Assembly: GCF_031844685.1 (NCBI RefSeq)
Contig: NZ_CP134605.1
Coordinates: 2,872,001-2,936,000 of the forward strand
Direction: 5' to 3'
Length of the DNA stretch: 64,000 nucleotides
Source of the DNA: Streptomyces sp. ITFR-21
GTDB taxonomy: Bacteria > Actinomycetota > Actinomycetes > Streptomycetales > Streptomycetaceae
How positions within the stretch are numbered: the first letter of the stretch is position 1; each line of letters starts with the position of its first letter. Under the pieces are notes generated by a model, which did no database searches, had not been told where the DNA came from, and was given only the letters and a program-made list of their open reading frames with translations. The translations under genes were made by a program, and so were the position numbers. Below, in pieces: positions 2,881 to 20,836 of this stretch.

Positions 2881-4701
2881 ATGTCCGATAAAACCGCTGA
2901 AACCGCCCACGCAGCCGTCCCGCCGGTCGTCCCGGCCCGGCGGCGGACCGTGCCGTGGGCGGCTGCGGTCTGCGCGGCGTTCTCGCTGGTCCAGCTGGTG
3001 CTGGTGGTTCCCGGCAGCGGGCTGGGCTGGGACGAGACCGTCTACACCAGCCAGGTGAGCGGCTCGGTGCCGGCTGCCTTCTTCAGCGCGCCGCGGGCCC
3101 GCGGCGTCTCCTTCCTCGCGGCGCCGGTCGCCGAGTGGACGGCTTCCACGGCGGCCCTGCGGGTGTGGCTGGCGGTGCTGTCGGGCGCGGGGCTGTATCT
3201 CGCCTTGCGGGCCTGGCGGTCGCTGCTGCCGCCGCCCGTACTCGCGCTGGCGGGCGGGCTGTTCGGCACGCTGTGGGTCAGCCTCTACTACGGACCGCAG
3301 GTGATGCCCAACCTGTGGAGCGCGTACGGGGGGTTGGCGGCCGTCGGCTGCTTCCTGCGGGCGGCCCGGGACCGTACCGACCGGTCCGCGCCGCTCGGGC
3401 TGGCACTCGCCGTCACGGTCACCGGGCTGATGCGACCGCCGGACGCCGTCTGGCTGGTGCTGCCGCTGGGCGTCCTCTCCGCGGCCGTCCCGGGCGCGCG
3501 CCGCCCGCTGGTGTGGGCCGCGCTCGCCACCGGGGCGGTACTCGGCTGCGGGGAGTGGGTCGTCGAGGCGTACGTCCGCTACGGCGGCCTCGCCGAGCGG
3601 CTTCACCGCGCGAGCGCCATCCAGGGCGGCACCGGCTGGAACTTCGCCGTCGACGACCAGATCAGAGCGCTCGACGGCCGCACCCTGTGCCGCCCCTGCG
3701 ACATCCCCTGGCACCATCGTGCCACCTCCGCCTGGTGGTTCGCCCTCCCCGTCCTCGCCGCCGGCGGCCTCCTCGCGACGGGCGACCGGCCCCCGCCGCA
3801 CGGAGGCCGCGGGCGGCCGGGCCAAGGGTCGCTTCCACAGCGGCGGTTCGGCCTCCGGCGGCAGGCCGCCGGCGACACGCCCGCCGCCCGCGACCGGCCC
3901 GGGACACCGGACCACCGTCCGCCGGGCCGTACCCCCTTGCCGCAACAGGGCCGCTCCGGGGGGTGGTTCGGTCCGCCGCGGACCGGGGCCGGGGACGTGG
4001 AGGGCGCCGGGGCGGCGGCCCGGGAGCAGGGGCGGGAGCGGGAGCGGGACCGAGGGCGGGGGCGGGAGCGGGAGCGGGACCGAGGGCGGGGGCGGGAGCG
4101 GGACCGAGGGCGGGGCGTGGGGCCGGCTGCCGTGCTGGTGGCGTCCTCGCTGGCCGTGCCGTACCTGTTCCTGATCGGCTACGCGGCACCGCGCTTCCTG
4201 CTGCCGAGCTACGCGCTGCTGGCGCCGCCCGTCGCCTCCTGCCTGTGGGCGCTGCTCACCGCCCGTGCCGGGCTGGCGCGCCCGCTGCTGACCACGGTGG
4301 TGGCTGCCGCGCTCTGCGGTCACGTCGCGATCCAGCTGAGCACCGCGCTGACCGACGTCCGCGCCAACCGCGCCATGCGCGGCGCCTACGACGCCGTTGC
4401 CACCCGCCTGCACACCGCGGGCCTCCGCCCGCCGTGCGTGCTGAGCGGGGACCACGCCGTGCCCGTGGCCTTTTACACCGGCTGCGCCTCCCGGCAGGTC
4501 GGCGGCCCGGACGGCAGCATCACCCCGGCCGGTCTGGCCGCGGCCGCCCGCACCGGCGCGGTCGCCGTCCTCGTGCCCCGCCACGGCCGGCCGCCGGCGT
4601 ACGCGCGCGCCTGGCGTGTCGTGCCGCTTCCGGACTCCGCCGCCTTCCCCGGCTACCACGGCTATGTGGCACCGCCGCCGCGCGGCCGACCCGGTCCGTA
4701 G
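2881..4701 (+). CDS. Polytopic membrane protein with a large low-complexity insertion
   Basis: Translation from the ATG at 2881 gives 606 residues. A first group of hydrophobic helices spans about residues 20-300, and a second group (VLVASSLAVPYLFLIGY, LLPSYALLAPPVASCLWALL, LLTTVVAAALCG) spans about 420-490. A soluble C-terminal domain follows. The topology resembles actinobacterial glycosyltransferase-like membrane proteins, but no catalytic motif is certain. Residues about 300-415 are an Arg/Gly/Pro-rich insertion ending in repeats of RERERDRGRG; this would sit in a loop between the helix groups. A TAGGCT hexamer lies 13 bp before the ATG with no clear ribosome site, so a leaderless or short-leader mRNA is possible. 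The function is not recognised. Confidence 0.7.
   Translation: MSDKTAETAHAAVPPVVPARRRTVPWAAAVCAAFSLVQLVLVVPGSGLGWDETVYTSQVSGSVPAAFFSAPRARGVSFLAAPVAEWTASTAALRVWLAVLSGAGLYLALRAWRSLLPPPVLALAGGLFGTLWVSLYYGPQVMPNLWSAYGGLAAVGCFLRAARDRTDRSAPLGLALAVTVTGLMRPPDAVWLVLPLGVLSAAVPGARRPLVWAALATGAVLGCGEWVVEAYVRYGGLAERLHRASAIQGGTGWNFAVDDQIRALDGRTLCRPCDIPWHHRATSAWWFALPVLAAGGLLATGDRPPPHGGRGRPGQGSLPQRRFGLRRQAAGDTPAARDRPGTPDHRPPGRTPLPQQGRSGGWFGPPRTGAGDVEGAGAAAREQGRERERDRGRGRERERDRGRGRERDRGRGVGPAAVLVASSLAVPYLFLIGYAAPRFLLPSYALLAPPVASCLWALLTARAGLARPLLTTVVAAALCGHVAIQLSTALTDVRANRAMRGAYDAVATRLHTAGLRPPCVLSGDHAVPVAFYTGCASRQVGGPDGSITPAGLAAAARTGAVAVLVPRHGRPPAYARAWRVVPLPDSAAFPGYHGYVAPPPRGRPGP
4020..4120 (+). repeat. In-frame GC-rich tandem repeat inside the membrane protein gene
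   Basis: Imperfect direct repeats built from GGGCGGGAGCGGGAGCGGGA units, with three GACCGAGGGCGGG junctions, encode the RERERDRGRG stretch. The period varies (roughly 36 then 30 bp), so copy number probably changes by slippage while staying in frame. Confidence 0.75.
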
Positions 4702-15325: not shown

Positions 15326-15400
15326 GGTCCTGTGGAGCAGTTTGGAGTGCTCGCCACCCTGTCAAGGTGGAGGCCGCGGGTTCAAATCCCGTCAGGACCG
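15326..15400 (+). tRNA. tRNA-Asp (GTC)
   Basis: Acceptor GGTCCTG pairs with CAGGACC. The anticodon loop reads CTGTCAA, anticodon GTC, and the T-arm CGGGTTCAAATCCCG is canonical. 3' CCA is not encoded. Four bases later tRNA-Phe begins, so the two are probably co-transcribed. An identical copy lies at 19708. Confidence 0.97.
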
Positions 15401-15404
15401 CTGC

Positions 15405-15517: not shown

Positions 15518-15683
15518 CGTTTCCGTGCGGTGCCGCCCTGCCTGCGGCCCGCGCCCCGTCGCCCGCCCGTCGCGTCCCACCCGTTCCACCGGCCCCGCAC
15601 GGCCCGCGAAGTTCCGGCCGCGCGCCGGACCCGGCGGAAATGGTTCGCCGCCGCGCGCCGCCGGATGCGATGCTGGACCGCGT

Positions 15684-18600
15684 ATGTCTACCCAACCCTC
15701 CTCCGCCGAGCTGGCCCGACGGCTGCCCGCGCTGACCCTGCGCGACGAGCAGCGCCTCGGCCGCCGTCTCGACGGCGCCCGCCGCATCCGCAAACCCGAG
15801 GCACGGGACGCGGTGCTCGCCGAGATCGCCGCCGAGATCGACCGGGGCGAGCTGCGGCTGGCCGCGCGCCGGTCCGCCGTACCCGAGGTGACGTACCCCG
15901 AGCAGCTGCCGGTCAGCCAGAAGAAGGACGAGATCGCGGCGGCGATACGCGACCACCAGGTGGTGATCGTCGCGGGCGAGACCGGCTCGGGCAAGACCAC
16001 CCAGATCCCGAAGATCTGCCTGGAACTGGGCCGGGGCGTGCGCGGCCTGATCGGGCACACCCAGCCGCGCCGGATCGCCGCCCGCACCGTCGCCGAGCGC
16101 GTCGCGGAGGAGCTGCGCACCCCGCTGGGCGGCGCCGTCGGCTGGAAGGTCCGCTTCACCGACCAGGTCGGCGACGCCACCCTGGTCAAGCTGATGACCG
16201 ACGGCATCATGCTCGCCGAGATCCAGACCGACCGCGAGCTGCGCGCGTACGACACGATCATCATCGACGAGGCCCACGAGCGCAGCCTCAACATCGACTT
16301 CATCCTGGGCTACCTCGCCCAGCTGCTGCCGCGCCGGCCCGACCTGAAGGTCGTCATCACCTCGGCGACCATCGACCCGCAGCGCTTCTCCCGGCACTTC
16401 GGCGACGCGCCGGTCATCGAGGTCAGCGGGCGTACGTACCCGGTCGAGGTGCGCTACCGGCCGCTGCTGGAGGAGGGCGGCGAGGACGCCGACCGGGACC
16501 AGATCGGCGCCATCTGCGACGCCGTGGACGAGCTGCAGGCCGAAGGCCCCGGCGACATCCTGGTCTTCCTCTCCGGCGAGCGCGAGATCCGCGACACCGC
16601 CGACGCCCTCGACAAGCACCTGACCCGCGGCGGCGGCGCGGTCCGGTCCGGCACCGAGATCCTGCCGCTGTACGCGCGGCTGTCGTCGGCCGAGCAGCAC
16701 CGCGTCTTCCAGCAGCACTCCGGACGCCGGGTGGTGCTGGCCACCAACGTCGCCGAGACCTCGCTGACCGTCCCCGGCATCCGCTACGTCATCGACCCCG
16801 GCACCGCCCGGATCTCCCGCTACAGCCACCGCACCAAGGTGCAGCGGCTGCCCATCGAGCCGGTCAGCCAGGCCAGCGCCAACCAGCGCAAGGGCCGCTG
16901 CGGGCGTACCTCCGACGGCATCTGCATCCGGCTCTACGACGAGGAGGACTTCCTCGGCCGGCCGGAGTTCACCGACCCGGAGATCCTGCGCACCAACCTC
17001 GCCTCGGTGATCCTGCACATGACGGCGGCCGGCCTCGGCGACATCGCGAAGTTCCCCTTCATCGACCCGCCGGACAGCCGCAACATCAAGGACGGCGTCC
17101 AGCTGCTGGAGGAACTCGGCGCGCTCGACCCGCAGCAGAAGGACCCCCGCAAACGGCTGACCGAGATCGGCCGCAAGCTCGCCCAGCTCCCGGTGGACCC
17201 CCGGCTGGCCCGGATGGTGCTGGAGGCCGACCGCAACGGCTGCGTCCACGAGGTGATGGTGATCGCGTCCGCGCTGTCCATCCAGGACCCGCGCGAGCGC
17301 CCTGCCGACAAACAGGCGCAGGCCGACCAGCAGCACGCCCGCTTCCGCGAGGAGACCAGCGACTTCCTCGCCTTCCTCAATCTGTGGGGCCATATCCGCG
17401 AGCAGCAGAAGAGCCTGTCCTCCGCCGCCTTCCGCCGCGTGTGCCGCGGCGAGTACCTGAACTTTCTGCGGATCCGCGAATGGCAGGACATCTACAGCCA
17501 GTTGCGCGCCGTCGCCCGCCAGCTCGGCATCGACGTCAAGGAACCGGAGCACACCGACCAGGCCGTCGACCCGCAGCGGGTCCATGCCTCGCTGCTGGCC
17601 GGGCTGTTGTCGCATCTCGGCCTGAAGGACACCGACAAGAACGAGTACCTGGGCGCCCGCAGCGCGAAGTTCGCGGTGTTCCCCGGTTCGGCGCTGTTCA
17701 AGAAGCCGCCGCGCTGGATCATGTCGGCCGAGCTGGTGGAGACCTCCCGGCTGTGGGCGCGGGTCAACGCCAGGATCGAGCCGGAGTGGGTCGAGCCGCT
17801 GGCCCAGCACCTGGTCAAGCGCAGCTACAGCGAGCCGCACTGGGAGAAGGACCAGGCGGCGGTGCTGGCGTACGAGAAGGTCACCCTCTACGGCGTCCCG
17901 CTGGTCGCCCGGCGCAAGGTGAACTACGGGCGGATCGACCCCGAGGTCTCCCGGGAGCTGTTCATCCGCAACGCCCTGGTCGAGGGGGACTGGCGGACCC
18001 ACCACCAGTTCTTCCACGACAACCGCAAACTGCTCGGCGAGGTCGAGGAGCTGGAGCACCGCGCCCGGCGGCGCGACATCCTGGTCGACGACGAGACGCT
18101 GTTCGACTTCTACGACTCCCGGCTGCCCGAACACGTGGTGTCCGGGGCCCATTTCGACTCCTGGTGGAAGCAGAAGCGCCGCGAGGAACCGGAGTTGCTC
18201 AACTTCGAGCAGTCCATGCTGATCAACGAGAACGCGGAGGCGGTCACCAAGGCCGACTACCCGGACTCCTGGCGGCAGGGCGCGCTCACCTTCAAGGTGA
18301 CGTACCAGTTCGAGCCCGGCGCCGACGCGGACGGCGTGACCGTGCACATCCCGCTCCAGGTGCTCAACCAGGTCACCGCGGACGGCTTCGACTGGCAGAT
18401 CCCCGGGCTGCGGGAACAGGTCGTCACCGAGCTGATCCGCTCGCTGCCCAAGCCGATCCGGCGGCACTACGTACCGGCGCCGAACTACGCACGCACGTTC
18501 CTCGACCGGGTGGCCGCCGGGCCCGACCCGCTGCCGGCGGTGCTGGCCCGGGAGTTGCAGCGGATGGTCGGTGTACCGGTCGCCGCGGCGGACTTCGACC

Positions 18601-19658
18601 TCACCAGGGTGCCCGAGCACCTGAAGATCACCTTCCGGGTGACCGACGAGCGCCGCCGCAAGATCGCCGAGGACAAGGACCTGGACGCGCTGCGGCTGCG
18701 GCTCAAGCCGAAGACCCGGGAGGCCATCACCCGGGCCTTCGAGCAGGTCTCGGACCCGGCGCTGGCCACCATGGAGCAGCGCACCGGCCTGCGGGACTGG
18801 ACGGTCGGCGCGCTGCCCAGGACCTTCGAGACGCGCCGCGCCGGGCAGCCGGTGAAGGCGTATCCGGCGCTGGTGGACGAGGGCGACTCGGTGGCGGTCC
18901 GGCTGTTCGACACCGAGCCGGAGCAGGCCGAGGCGATGTGGCGCGGCACCCGGCGGCTGATCCTGCTCAACGTGCCGGTGAACCCGGCGAAGTTCGTCGC
19001 CGACCGGCTGTCCAACCAGCAGAAGCTGGCGCTGTCCCGCAACCCGCACGGCGGCGTCCAGGCGCTGTTCGAGGACTGCGCGACCGCGGCGGCGGACCGG
19101 CTGATCGCCGCGAACGGCGGGCCCGCCTGGGACGAGGCGGCCTACCGCAAGCTGTACGAGGCGGTGCGGGCGGAGCTGGTCGAACTGACCGTGCGCGGCG
19201 TGGAGCGGGTCCAGCAGGTGCTGGCCGCCTGGCACTCCTGCGAGCGGCGCCTGAAGGACACCAGGAGCCTGGTGCTGGTCGCCAACCTCCAGGACGTGAA
19301 GGAGCAGTTGGCGGGGCTCGTGCACGCCGGTTTCGTCACCGACACGGGGCTGCCGCGGCTGCCGGACCTGATGCGGTATCTCGTCGCGATCGACCGCCGG
19401 CTCCAGCAGATGCCGACGGGGGCGGCGCGGGACACCAGCAGGATGGAGAAGGTCCGCGAGATCCAGGCGGAGTACGCCGACCTGCTCGCCGCGCAGCCGC
19501 CCGGCCGGCCCCTGCCGCCCGCGGTCCGCGACATCCGCTGGATGATCGAGGAACTGCGGGTCAGCTACTTCGCGCACGCCCTGGGCACGGCGTTCCCCGT
19601 CTCCGACAAGCGCGTCTTCAAGTCCCTCGACGACGCGTGGTCCCTCACCCGCCCCTGA
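15684..19658 (+). CDS. hrpA: ATP-dependent RNA helicase HrpA
   Basis: The 1324-residue DEAH-box helicase is of the usual HrpA length. Walker A GETGSGKT lies at 99-106, motif II DEAH at 195-198 and SAT (ITSATID) soon after. Motif VI NQRKGRCGR falls near 410, followed by the helicase-associated and OB-fold domains and a long HrpA-specific C-terminus (DUF3418 type). HrpA unwinds mRNA structures and resolves stalled or collided ribosomes. The start is the ATG at 15684 (MSTQPSSAELARRLPALTLRDEQRL-like). The gene sits exactly between two identical tRNA-Asp genes. A long antisense open frame covers it but is a shadow of codon bias. Confidence 0.97.
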   Translation: MSTQPSSAELARRLPALTLRDEQRLGRRLDGARRIRKPEARDAVLAEIAAEIDRGELRLAARRSAVPEVTYPEQLPVSQKKDEIAAAIRDHQVVIVAGETGSGKTTQIPKICLELGRGVRGLIGHTQPRRIAARTVAERVAEELRTPLGGAVGWKVRFTDQVGDATLVKLMTDGIMLAEIQTDRELRAYDTIIIDEAHERSLNIDFILGYLAQLLPRRPDLKVVITSATIDPQRFSRHFGDAPVIEVSGRTYPVEVRYRPLLEEGGEDADRDQIGAICDAVDELQAEGPGDILVFLSGEREIRDTADALDKHLTRGGGAVRSGTEILPLYARLSSAEQHRVFQQHSGRRVVLATNVAETSLTVPGIRYVIDPGTARISRYSHRTKVQRLPIEPVSQASANQRKGRCGRTSDGICIRLYDEEDFLGRPEFTDPEILRTNLASVILHMTAAGLGDIAKFPFIDPPDSRNIKDGVQLLEELGALDPQQKDPRKRLTEIGRKLAQLPVDPRLARMVLEADRNGCVHEVMVIASALSIQDPRERPADKQAQADQQHARFREETSDFLAFLNLWGHIREQQKSLSSAAFRRVCRGEYLNFLRIREWQDIYSQLRAVARQLGIDVKEPEHTDQAVDPQRVHASLLAGLLSHLGLKDTDKNEYLGARSAKFAVFPGSALFKKPPRWIMSAELVETSRLWARVNARIEPEWVEPLAQHLVKRSYSEPHWEKDQAAVLAYEKVTLYGVPLVARRKVNYGRIDPEVSRELFIRNALVEGDWRTHHQFFHDNRKLLGEVEELEHRARRRDILVDDETLFDFYDSRLPEHVVSGAHFDSWWKQKRREEPELLNFEQSMLINENAEAVTKADYPDSWRQGALTFKVTYQFEPGADADGVTVHIPLQVLNQVTADGFDWQIPGLREQVVTELIRSLPKPIRRHYVPAPNYARTFLDRVAAGPDPLPAVLARELQRMVGVPVAAADFDLTRVPEHLKITFRVTDERRRKIAEDKDLDALRLRLKPKTREAITRAFEQVSDPALATMEQRTGLRDWTVGALPRTFETRRAGQPVKAYPALVDEGDSVAVRLFDTEPEQAEAMWRGTRRLILLNVPVNPAKFVADRLSNQQKLALSRNPHGGVQALFEDCATAAADRLIAANGGPAWDEAAYRKLYEAVRAELVELTVRGVERVQQVLAAWHSCERRLKDTRSLVLVANLQDVKEQLAGLVHAGFVTDTGLPRLPDLMRYLVAIDRRLQQMPTGAARDTSRMEKVREIQAEYADLLAAQPPGRPLPPAVRDIRWMIEELRVSYFAHALGTAFPVSDKRVFKSLDDAWSLTRP

Positions 19659-19707
19659 CAACCGGTTCGACCCCACCCCCTGACCTGCTGTACAGTCTGA
19701 CTCGCGA

Positions 19708-19782
19708 GGTCCTGTGGAGCAGTTTGGAGTGCTCGCCACCCTGTCAAGGTGGAGGCCGCGGGTTCAAATCCCGTCAGGACCG
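19708..19782 (+). tRNA. tRNA-Asp (GTC), second copy
   Basis: Identical over 75 nt to the tRNA at 15326. The flanks differ upstream, so only the gene itself is duplicated. Anticodon GTC. It is followed by a hairpin terminator and then by a relic of its own 3' end. Confidence 0.97.
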
Positions 19783-19796
19783 CATCGACACATGAG

Positions 19797-19826
19797 AGGC
19801 CCGCCTACGGCACCGTACGCGGGCCT
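19797..19826 (+). terminator. Terminator of the second tRNA-Asp
   Basis: AGGCCCGC (19797-19804) pairs with GCGGGCCT (19819-19826), with extra TAC/GTA pairing inside the loop. TT follows. Confidence 0.75.
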
Positions 19827-19888
19827 TTCGCATGCCCGCCCCCAGCGGGCCGCGCCACGCGGCGCCGGGGGCCAGCGGACACGGCGAC

Positions 19889-19949
19889 ATCCCGTCAGGA
19901 CCACGACGATACGAGGGGCCCGCGTACCGCACCGTACGCGGGCCCCTCG
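19889..19949 (+). repeat. tRNA-Asp 3'-end relic with duplicated terminator
   Basis: The 14 bases ATCCCGTCAGGACC at 19889-19902 repeat the 3' end of tRNA-Asp (19768-19781). They are followed, as in the intact copy, by a hairpin with the same ACCGTACGCGGGCC half (19913-19949). Both units then continue into a shared GGCCGCGCCACGCGGCGCCG segment. This is a degenerate tandem duplication of tRNA tail plus terminator, either a past integration scar or a decayed third tRNA-Asp. Confidence 0.7.
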
Positions 19950-20458
19950 CACGCCCGCCGGCGTACGACGACGGGCGCCGGCCCCCGCCTCCGGCAGGCC
20001 GCGCCACGCGGCGCCGGGGGCGCCCGCCCGCGGCGGCCCGCGCACGCCCCTCGCTCGCGCGAACGCCCCCCAGTGCCGCGGCAGTTGGCGGATCCGGCCG
20101 AGCCCGTCCACGAAGTCGGAGGCGGGCTCCTCGCGTTGGCGCCCCGGGCAGGCGGCCCCGGCGGCGGGCTCTTCGGGTCGCGGCCCGCAGGGCACCGCGT
20201 GGTCGGGCAAGTACCCTGCGTGGCGCGGGAGTTCACTACCGTACGGGTGGGAAGATCCACAAGCGCGCAGAGATGTGACGGGAGTCACTGAAGGTCCTTC
20301 GAAACCGGGGGAATCCGAACCCCTGCGGAAGGGCCGCAATTTAATATGTGCAATGGTACCCAGCGGGGGGACGACTCCGGCGTTGGCGAGCAGCAGCCCC
20401 GAAGACCCCACAGACCCCGCCGCCCCCGACCGGACACCGCGCCCGAAGACGCGAAAAA
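19950..20458. other. Gene-free interval with a structured element at 20292-20335
   Basis: I see no convincing coding region. At 20292-20335 an extended hairpin forms: GGTCCTTC pairs with GAAGGGCC, and GGGG/CCCC pair inside it. The minus-strand version contains GGGGTTCGGATTCCCC, which looks like a tRNA T-arm. A short GTGAC-GGGA-GTCAC inverted repeat lies at 20274-20287. The element could be part of the bldC 3' untranslated region or a tRNA-like relic. Confidence 0.4.
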
Positions 20459-20495
20459 GGGACCGCATCGGACCCGGCGGAGTCCGATGCGGTCC
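20459..20495 (-). terminator. Strong hairpin terminator downstream of bldC
   Basis: A long near-perfect stem is formed by 20459-20473 and 20481-20495 (GGGACCGCATCGGA against TCCGATGCGGTCCC). On the minus strand it follows bldC, and TTTTTC follows the stem, giving a classical intrinsic terminator. Confidence 0.8.
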
Positions 20496-20629
20496 CGGTG
20501 GAACCAGTGAAGCCGGTGGAACCGTGAAGCTGTGCGTGCTACCCGTCGGCTCCCTGATGGGGGGCAGACAAGCCGCCGGGCTGGGCGGTCGGACGGGGTG
20601 GGGGACCCCGGAACCGCCCGAAAGGGCTG

Positions 20630-20836
20630 TCAGGCCTCGGTCCGCTGCTGCGGAATGCCCGCCAGCAGTGCGCGGACCTCCGCCTCGCGGTACCGGCGGT
20701 GGCCGCCGAGCGTGCGGATGGACGTGAGCTTGCCGGCCTTGGCCCACCGCGTGACCGTCTTGGGGTCGACGCGGAACATGGTCGCGACCTCGGCAGGGGT
20801 AAGCAACGGCTCGGCATCAGGGGTGCGAGCGGTCAT
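20630..20836 (-). CDS. bldC: Developmental regulator BldC (MerR-type HTH)
   Basis: A 68-residue protein with the length and sequence expected of BldC (SCO4091 in S. coelicolor): LLTPAEVATMFRVDPKTVTR then WAKAGKLTSIRTLGGHRRYREAEV. It is a lone MerR-like winged helix-turn-helix without an effector domain. BldC binds DNA cooperatively as head-to-tail arrays and holds back entry into sporulation. Linkage to hrpA and vdh, as in other streptomycetes, supports orthology. It is monocistronic, with a long upstream non-coding region and a strong terminator. Confidence 0.97.
   Translation of the reverse strand: MTARTPDAEPLLTPAEVATMFRVDPKTVTRWAKAGKLTSIRTLGGHRRYREAEVRALLAGIPQQRTEA

Follow-up and report, generated by a model that had tools for sequence, protein, structure and literature searches.

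Tandem units that a minority of Streptomycetaceae carry after tRNA-Asp are probably truncated tRNA-Asp copies with a palindromic module in place of the T-loop

Why does the 3' end of an intact tRNA-Asp gene, together with the hairpin that follows it and the tail of that hairpin, appear again 121 bp further on? In the window (the whole stretch of DNA that was analysed, 64 kb), the 14-mer ATCCCGTCAGGACC occurs three times, always on the + strand: once in each of two tRNA-Asp genes and once in a relic. The copy within the second gene, which does not encode its CCA, lies at 19768-19781, and the exact relic begins 121 nt after it, start to start. An earlier note correctly recognized this duplication and offered two readings, namely a scar (att duplication) of an integrative element that had used tRNA-Asp, or a decayed tandem tRNA-Asp gene. 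Judging from the sequence, we consider it probable that this duplication represents a short and partly decayed example of the tandem arrays that follow tRNA-Asp in a small share of Streptomycetaceae genomes; their units are truncated tRNA-Asp copies that have a conserved palindromic module of ~30 nt where the gene has its T-loop and that end in a copy of local downstream sequence. The parts of the locus are listed in Table 1.

Table 1. Features of the tRNA-Asp locus and its surroundings in the window
Feature	Position	Strand	Basis
tRNA-Asp 1, 3 nt ahead of tRNA-Phe	15326-15401	+	ARAGORN
HrpA-type helicase gene, upstream of array	15525-19658	+	Pfam DUF3418, HA2, OB_NTP_bind, Helicase_C
Intact tRNA-Asp (GTC)	19708-19783	+	ARAGORN; Rfam RF00005, 62.2 bits
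First terminator-type hairpin, GGCCCGC...GCGGGCC	19794-19833	+	Direct repeat; read by eye
First module	19847-19888	+	Alignment A1 of 59 units
Exact relic of tRNA-Asp 3' end, nt 59-72	19889-19902	+	Repeat search
Second terminator-type hairpin, 16-bp perfect stem	19912-19949	+	Inverted repeat
Second module, cut short; array end	~19996-20021	+	Direct repeat; by-eye comparison with A1
BldC-like MerR-type regulator, convergent with array	20630-20836	-	ORF; Pfam HTH_17/MerR

The duplication extends well past the hairpin. The hairpin region aligns at 87% identity (19794-19840 with 19913-19959) and the stretch with the GGCCGCGCCACGCGGCGCCG tail at 83% (19835-19886 with 19984-20035), and the local alignment of the two window units scores 85, compared with 47 for the best of 1000 dinucleotide shuffles. 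Consequently, the argument that the earlier note had named against a duplication, a likeness confined to the hairpin and explained by two independent terminators, fails. Even though GC-rich terminators have a common composition, a chance likeness of two unrelated terminators is refuted by the shuffle test and by the recurrence of the pattern in relatives; in view of the exact 14-mer and the two similar flanks, we assign it practically no probability.

Within the window, the first module consists of a remnant of the tRNA-Asp variable region and T-stem 5' strand (GGCCGCG), followed by a palindromic insert that replaces the T-loop. Compared with alignment A1, this module has diverged in the window genome, and GGCCGCG is all that remains of the tRNA remnants 5' of the tail. 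No third tRNA tail follows the second module. Since its own module has diverged and the array ends in a cut module, the window array may be a mere relic. Neither hairpin is on the list of the consensus terminator scan, and the first is without a run of T. No relic was found within 1 kb downstream of tRNA-Asp 1 in the window genome. Rfam gives 68 tRNA matches in that genome; among 67 called tRNA genes that had 300 bases or more of sequence behind them, a set outside which the array-heading tRNA-Asp falls, the only match besides true neighbouring genes was one with two mismatches, at 551 nt.

The composition of a unit is clearer in the relatives. In A1, the T-stem 5' strand GGCCGCG is exact in 50 of the 59 aligned units, about 30 nt (CCCGCGGCGGAGCCGCAATCNGACACAGCAA) occupy the place of the gene's GGTTCAA, and tRNA sequence resumes at nt 59; 51 units share the gene's CAA immediately ahead of the tail, and much of the module pattern is missing from two (L153 and L160). 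Further upstream, the anticodon arm CGCCACCCTGTCAAGGTGGAGG stands ahead of the module with at most four mismatches in 17 of the 117 units collected, and several units that retain the arm intact resemble tRNA-Asp from GCTCGCC onward, past the D-loop. A copy of the local downstream sequence, either terminator or tRNA-Phe, ends the unit. The arm, the T-stem strand, the insert and the return to tRNA sequence at nt 59 together lead us to describe the unit as a 5'-truncated tRNA-Asp with its T-loop replaced. The decayed-gene reading came close to this truncated tRNA-Asp copy, since tRNA remnants precede the tail in the right order, and it overlooked the insert in the T-loop, the conservation of that insert and the recurrent array.

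The recurrence was counted in several ways. A strict pattern (two exact tails separated by 90-120 nt) occurs in 26 of 394 genomes of the family, including 12 of the 35 genomes of the window genome's genus; in two further genomes of that genus, the first relic departs from the tail at a single position (L016 and L027). In a species-genome collection, 58 stretches match, of which 57 are titled Streptomyces or Actinacidiphila and one 'Actinobacteria bacterium'. With profile R1, a sequence-only profile of module and tail, 31 of 150 Streptomyces genomes (the genus of G352) yield units at E <=1e-6. At 18 genus loci without a relic, module remnants are at chance level (one seen vs 0.85 expected), so that former presence followed by later loss is without support. 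No description of Streptomyces tRNA-Asp tail arrays was found in the literature searched, the full text of which was covered in part.

Over the loci gathered, a script requiring an intact tRNA-Asp 3' part (at most two substitutions) and a module-like motif returned 88 distinct arrays with 117 units, a total that includes at least one doubtful unit (the third tail of L182, with three mismatches) and excludes L317. The arrays hold one relic in 66 cases, two in 17, three in 3 and four in 2, and unit length ranges from 78 to 248 nt with a median of 124. Of the 88 arrays, 83 are preceded by the end of an HrpA-type gene and three are followed by tRNA-Phe (the Asp1 cluster); the remaining two lie on contigs too short for their surroundings to be read. 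Owing to its two requirements, the script missed L160, where the module is unlike the motif, and L191 and L009, where the tRNA-Asp has an extra A; and because many loci were retrieved by the exact pattern, the locus set is biased toward exact first tails. At L009 and L191 (G018, Streptomyces sp. DvalAA-14), the extra A lies in the T-loop of the array-heading tRNA-Asp (TTCAAAATCC), and the other tRNA-Asp on the contig is normal. The extra base is possibly the beginning of decay or a sequencing error.

The units are copies of what stands beside them. Terminators are alike within an array and nearly unlike between species, and at L307 a variant tRNA-Asp gene (GTCCCGTCAGGATC) is followed by a relic with the same variants. 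At L180, L294, L298 and L317, the unit stands at the other tRNA-Asp (Asp1), ahead of tRNA-Phe, and in the last three of these tRNA-Phe sequence is also present after the relic; the second copy in L317 is decayed, since ARAGORN calls one tRNA-Phe there. Such local copying of tails, terminators and tRNA-Phe points to segmental tandem duplication and not to insertion of a foreign element. The proportion of exact tails declines away from the gene, from 80 of 88 first tails to 16 of 22 second, 3 of 5 third and 0 of 2 fourth tails. We suggest that tandem duplication would have yielded a truncated, module-bearing tRNA-Asp copy, and that unequal recombination may have expanded, contracted and homogenised the units against the intact gene.

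An integrative element that once occupied tRNA-Asp and was later lost could also have left the tRNA 3' end duplicated, and tyrosine integrases are known to use the T-loop, where the duplicated part does begin, for crossover. However, the homology runs beyond an att core, through hairpin and tail, the units are tandem with up to four relics, and the sequence preceding the relic is itself derived from tRNA-Asp. None of the six window proteins tested with Pfam has an integrase domain, and one of them has no family match. In the window genome's genus (35 genomes, 34 with a match), five off-site 14-mers were found, all in sequence that looks coding by eye, and none was seen bounding an element. In Streptomyces (61 genomes, 51 with a 16-mer match), the two tRNA-Asp genes can stand 8-33 kb apart; tRNA calls and the tail search at six such wide-spaced places returned tRNA genes and known arrays only, with no element bounded by tRNA-Asp tails. 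This survey is informative for genomes with both genes on one contig, the off-site matches of G066 (at 4.80 Mb) and G454 being left out. In addition, viral contigs have no exact match to the module-tail sequence ACAGCAAATCCCGTCAGGACC, and the att-like case nearby, an exact repeat of 46 bp, employs tRNA-Phe. We therefore regard the att scar as a very unlikely explanation of the window feature, and we keep to the tandem array of truncated tRNA-Asp copies.

The att-like repeat at tRNA-Phe, beside tRNA-Asp, has its two copies 2.9 kb apart in L313 (reverse strand, ~780-830 and 3670-3720), and L314 has a repeat of 40 nt with at most two mismatches at ~687 and 5318, 4.6 kb apart. The gap between the two tRNA-Asp genes is ~33 kb in L310-L311 (G080) and ~19 kb in L312 (G422), and is often 4-7 kb in the other listed genomes; inside the L310-L312 gaps, no further tail of tRNA-Phe or of tRNA-Asp was found. 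A term search of an AICE paper (PMC3218068) gave neither tRNA-Asp nor tRNA-Phe.

To see which parts of a unit are kept, we compared units within and between arrays. For 27 pairs of neighbouring units, in 21 of which the tails compared are those of the real gene and of the first relic, 448 of 459 positions agree in the tail (17 nt; inflated for the first pair, since many loci were retrieved by the exact pattern), 1013 of 1074 in the module, 1251 of 1504 in the terminator and 322 of 578 in the linker. Between species, mean identity is 98.5% for the tail, 83.8% for the module (51.6% shuffled), 55.0% for the terminator (46.1%) and 29.9% for the linker (22.0%), in a sample that favours conserved modules, since modules were identified through a motif that spans part of their length. 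These means come from 600 random pairs among the first units of 86 arrays, units with an unrecognised module start being left out. Module and tail are thus better kept than terminator and linker. Either selection acts on module and tail, or gene conversion maintains the tail while something else preserves the module; conversion by the intact tRNA could hold the tail exact without selection.

The hairpins behave differently along an array. Their mean energy is -29.6 kcal/mol in the 88 first units, -23.7 in the 29 inner units and -26.6 in the 86 last units, compared with -17.2 for shuffled sequence, and 6 of the 29 inner hairpins are weaker than -15 kcal/mol as against 1 of 88 first hairpins, this one being L175, whose value of 0 is probably an artefact. 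The strength of the first-unit hairpins, and the position of the window array between tRNA-Asp and the convergent bldC-like gene, would suit an array in which terminators were multiplied to keep tRNA-Asp transcription out of that gene; yet module and tail persist in inner units whose hairpins are weaker, and four units stand at the Asp1-Phe cluster, which makes this purpose improbable.

The same divergence between hairpins and the remainder of the unit would be expected if module and tail, freed from read-through transcripts, worked as an RNA that affects tRNA processing or acts in trans, and if the terminators were incidental. A precedent exists in the E. coli tyrT repeats, which, according to two papers, give rtT RNA with a tie to the stringent response (PMC2965389, PMC4986893). 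Against such an RNA, units are carried by a minority of species (31 of 150 by profile), and support from covariation is absent, as the RNAalifold consensus of module and tail has 11 pairs with almost no covariation. Two example units fold no better than shuffles once the terminator is removed (z 0.92 and -0.19); the window stretch folds with z -4.39, a value in which the second hairpin is included. We hold a functional RNA of this kind to be possible but doubtful. Under the duplication scheme favoured here, read-through transcripts might likewise carry module and tRNA tail as RNA, by analogy with rtT, and we are less sure of this step than of the others. The arrays may act as an RNA or as a reserve of terminators, or may be a by-product of recombination; of these ideas, a small RNA is the most testable.

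To our knowledge, rtT RNA and the tyrT repeats have long stood in isolation, as a curiosity of E. coli. At tyrTV of K-12 MG1655, AAGGTTCGA is followed by an insert and then by ATCCTTCCCCCACCACCA, which is the tRNA from nt 59 to CCA; four tails and four matches to RtT (RF00391) are present. At proK of K-12, there is one unit, made of GGAGGTTCGA, an insert and tRNA-Pro's own ATCCTCTATCACCGACCA, RtT matches here as well, and the terminator behind the gene is copied behind the unit. RtT scores at these two loci are 101-138 bits. Like the Streptomycetaceae units, which hold a 3' end of the neighbouring tRNA that starts within the T-loop, both E. coli loci combine a local tRNA 3' end cut at nt 58/59 with a palindromic insert and a remnant of the T-stem 5' strand, which is AAGGTTCGA at tyrTV and GGAGGTTCGA at proK, and proK shares the duplicated terminator too. 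They differ in the tRNA, the phylum and the insert. Moreover, tyrTV has an upstream strand of 8-10 nt that complements the tail, which is absent from the 117 Streptomycetaceae units (mean longest complement 3.98 nt vs 3.84 shuffled).

A third E. coli locus, argVYZQ of K-12, has three tRNA-Arg tails behind inserts, two between genes and one past the last gene. It resembles the Streptomycetaceae arrays in joining an insert to the local tRNA 3' end and departs from them in that whole tRNA genes alternate with units. An 8-nt upstream complement is present in one of its three units, the T-stem 5'-strand remnant TTCGA is absent before the insert, and there is no RtT match at gathering score (L326), the insert being RtT-like by eye. 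Among nine chosen E. coli tRNA loci, which do not amount to a census, units were found in these three and in none of the other six. With RtT at its gathering score of 45 bits, no match was obtained in six Streptomycetaceae loci, including L198 of the window genome, nor was there one in window positions 19600-20500 up to E=1. By layout, the Streptomycetaceae arrays thus appear to be an actinobacterial counterpart of the tyrT/rtT repeats, and by model score they lie outside Rfam RtT.

The module may also be related to repeats elsewhere in the genome. Of 13 genomes examined, 4 carry GCGGCGGAGCCGCNNNTNNNNACAGC at sites other than tRNA-Asp, with 19 copies in G163, and there it sits inside a palindromic intergenic repeat of ~70 bp in Streptomycetaceae, for which we know of no name. 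Its layout is GGGTGCGGG...GGTCGCGC[module]CCCGCGCCCC. Its inner part, GCGGCGGAGCCGCACATCGATACAGC, looks like the module of the arrays, as judged by eye and by pattern only, whereas the copies read have no tRNA tail. The consensus of this repeat was matched in 10 of 12 genomes, with up to 40 candidates scored per genome and at least that many matches in three of them; in the window genome, there are two matches, both in the part without the module. The repeat occurs with and without the inner module of ~28 nt (L222-L249 and L250-L279, from G163, G400, G352, G014, G026 and others), and several copies have AGTTC or something similar in its place. G415 has consecutive modules that lack the remainder of the repeat. 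For E. coli, relatives of rtT are described as members of the dispersed BIME repeats in PMC2965389.

The most surprising point is the shared cut. E. coli tRNA-Tyr, tRNA-Pro and tRNA-Arg and Streptomycetaceae tRNA-Asp are all cut at nt 58/59, that is, four tRNAs in two phyla, although the number of independent origins may be only two, since the E. coli units share similar inserts. We tentatively propose, as an idea more likely wrong than right, that the T-loop could be a recurrent landing or breakage place in both phyla, where tRNA 3' ends are fused to palindromic modules of REP-like type, so that the same layout would have arisen with different modules, each with the local tail. Were a specific process responsible, for instance the action of a transposase on hairpin loops or the copying of a tRNA fragment whose end is at nt 59, the units would form a general class. 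The nt 59 boundary is also known from retroviral primer sites and from 18-nt tRNA fragments.

A Streptomycetaceae counterpart helps to separate what is general in these repeats (the split T-loop, the local tail, the repeated copies) from what is accidental. It also cautions against reading every repeat of a tRNA tail downstream of its gene as an integration scar, and many natural variants with and without the array offer material for tests of function, S. olivaceus and S. seoulensis being examples of laboratory streptomycetes that have one.

Two further observations were made in passing. In the window genome, stretches of ~500 nt at G000:C1:4551353 and 4661024 (L125 and L126), ~110 kb apart, look identical and each hold the 14-mer; they belong to a duplicated gene region. 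In the same genome, L121 (G000:C2:15900-29700) holds, within 14 kb, three tRNA-Leu (TAA) genes that differ from one another, on a 325-kb contig that carries other tRNA genes as well.
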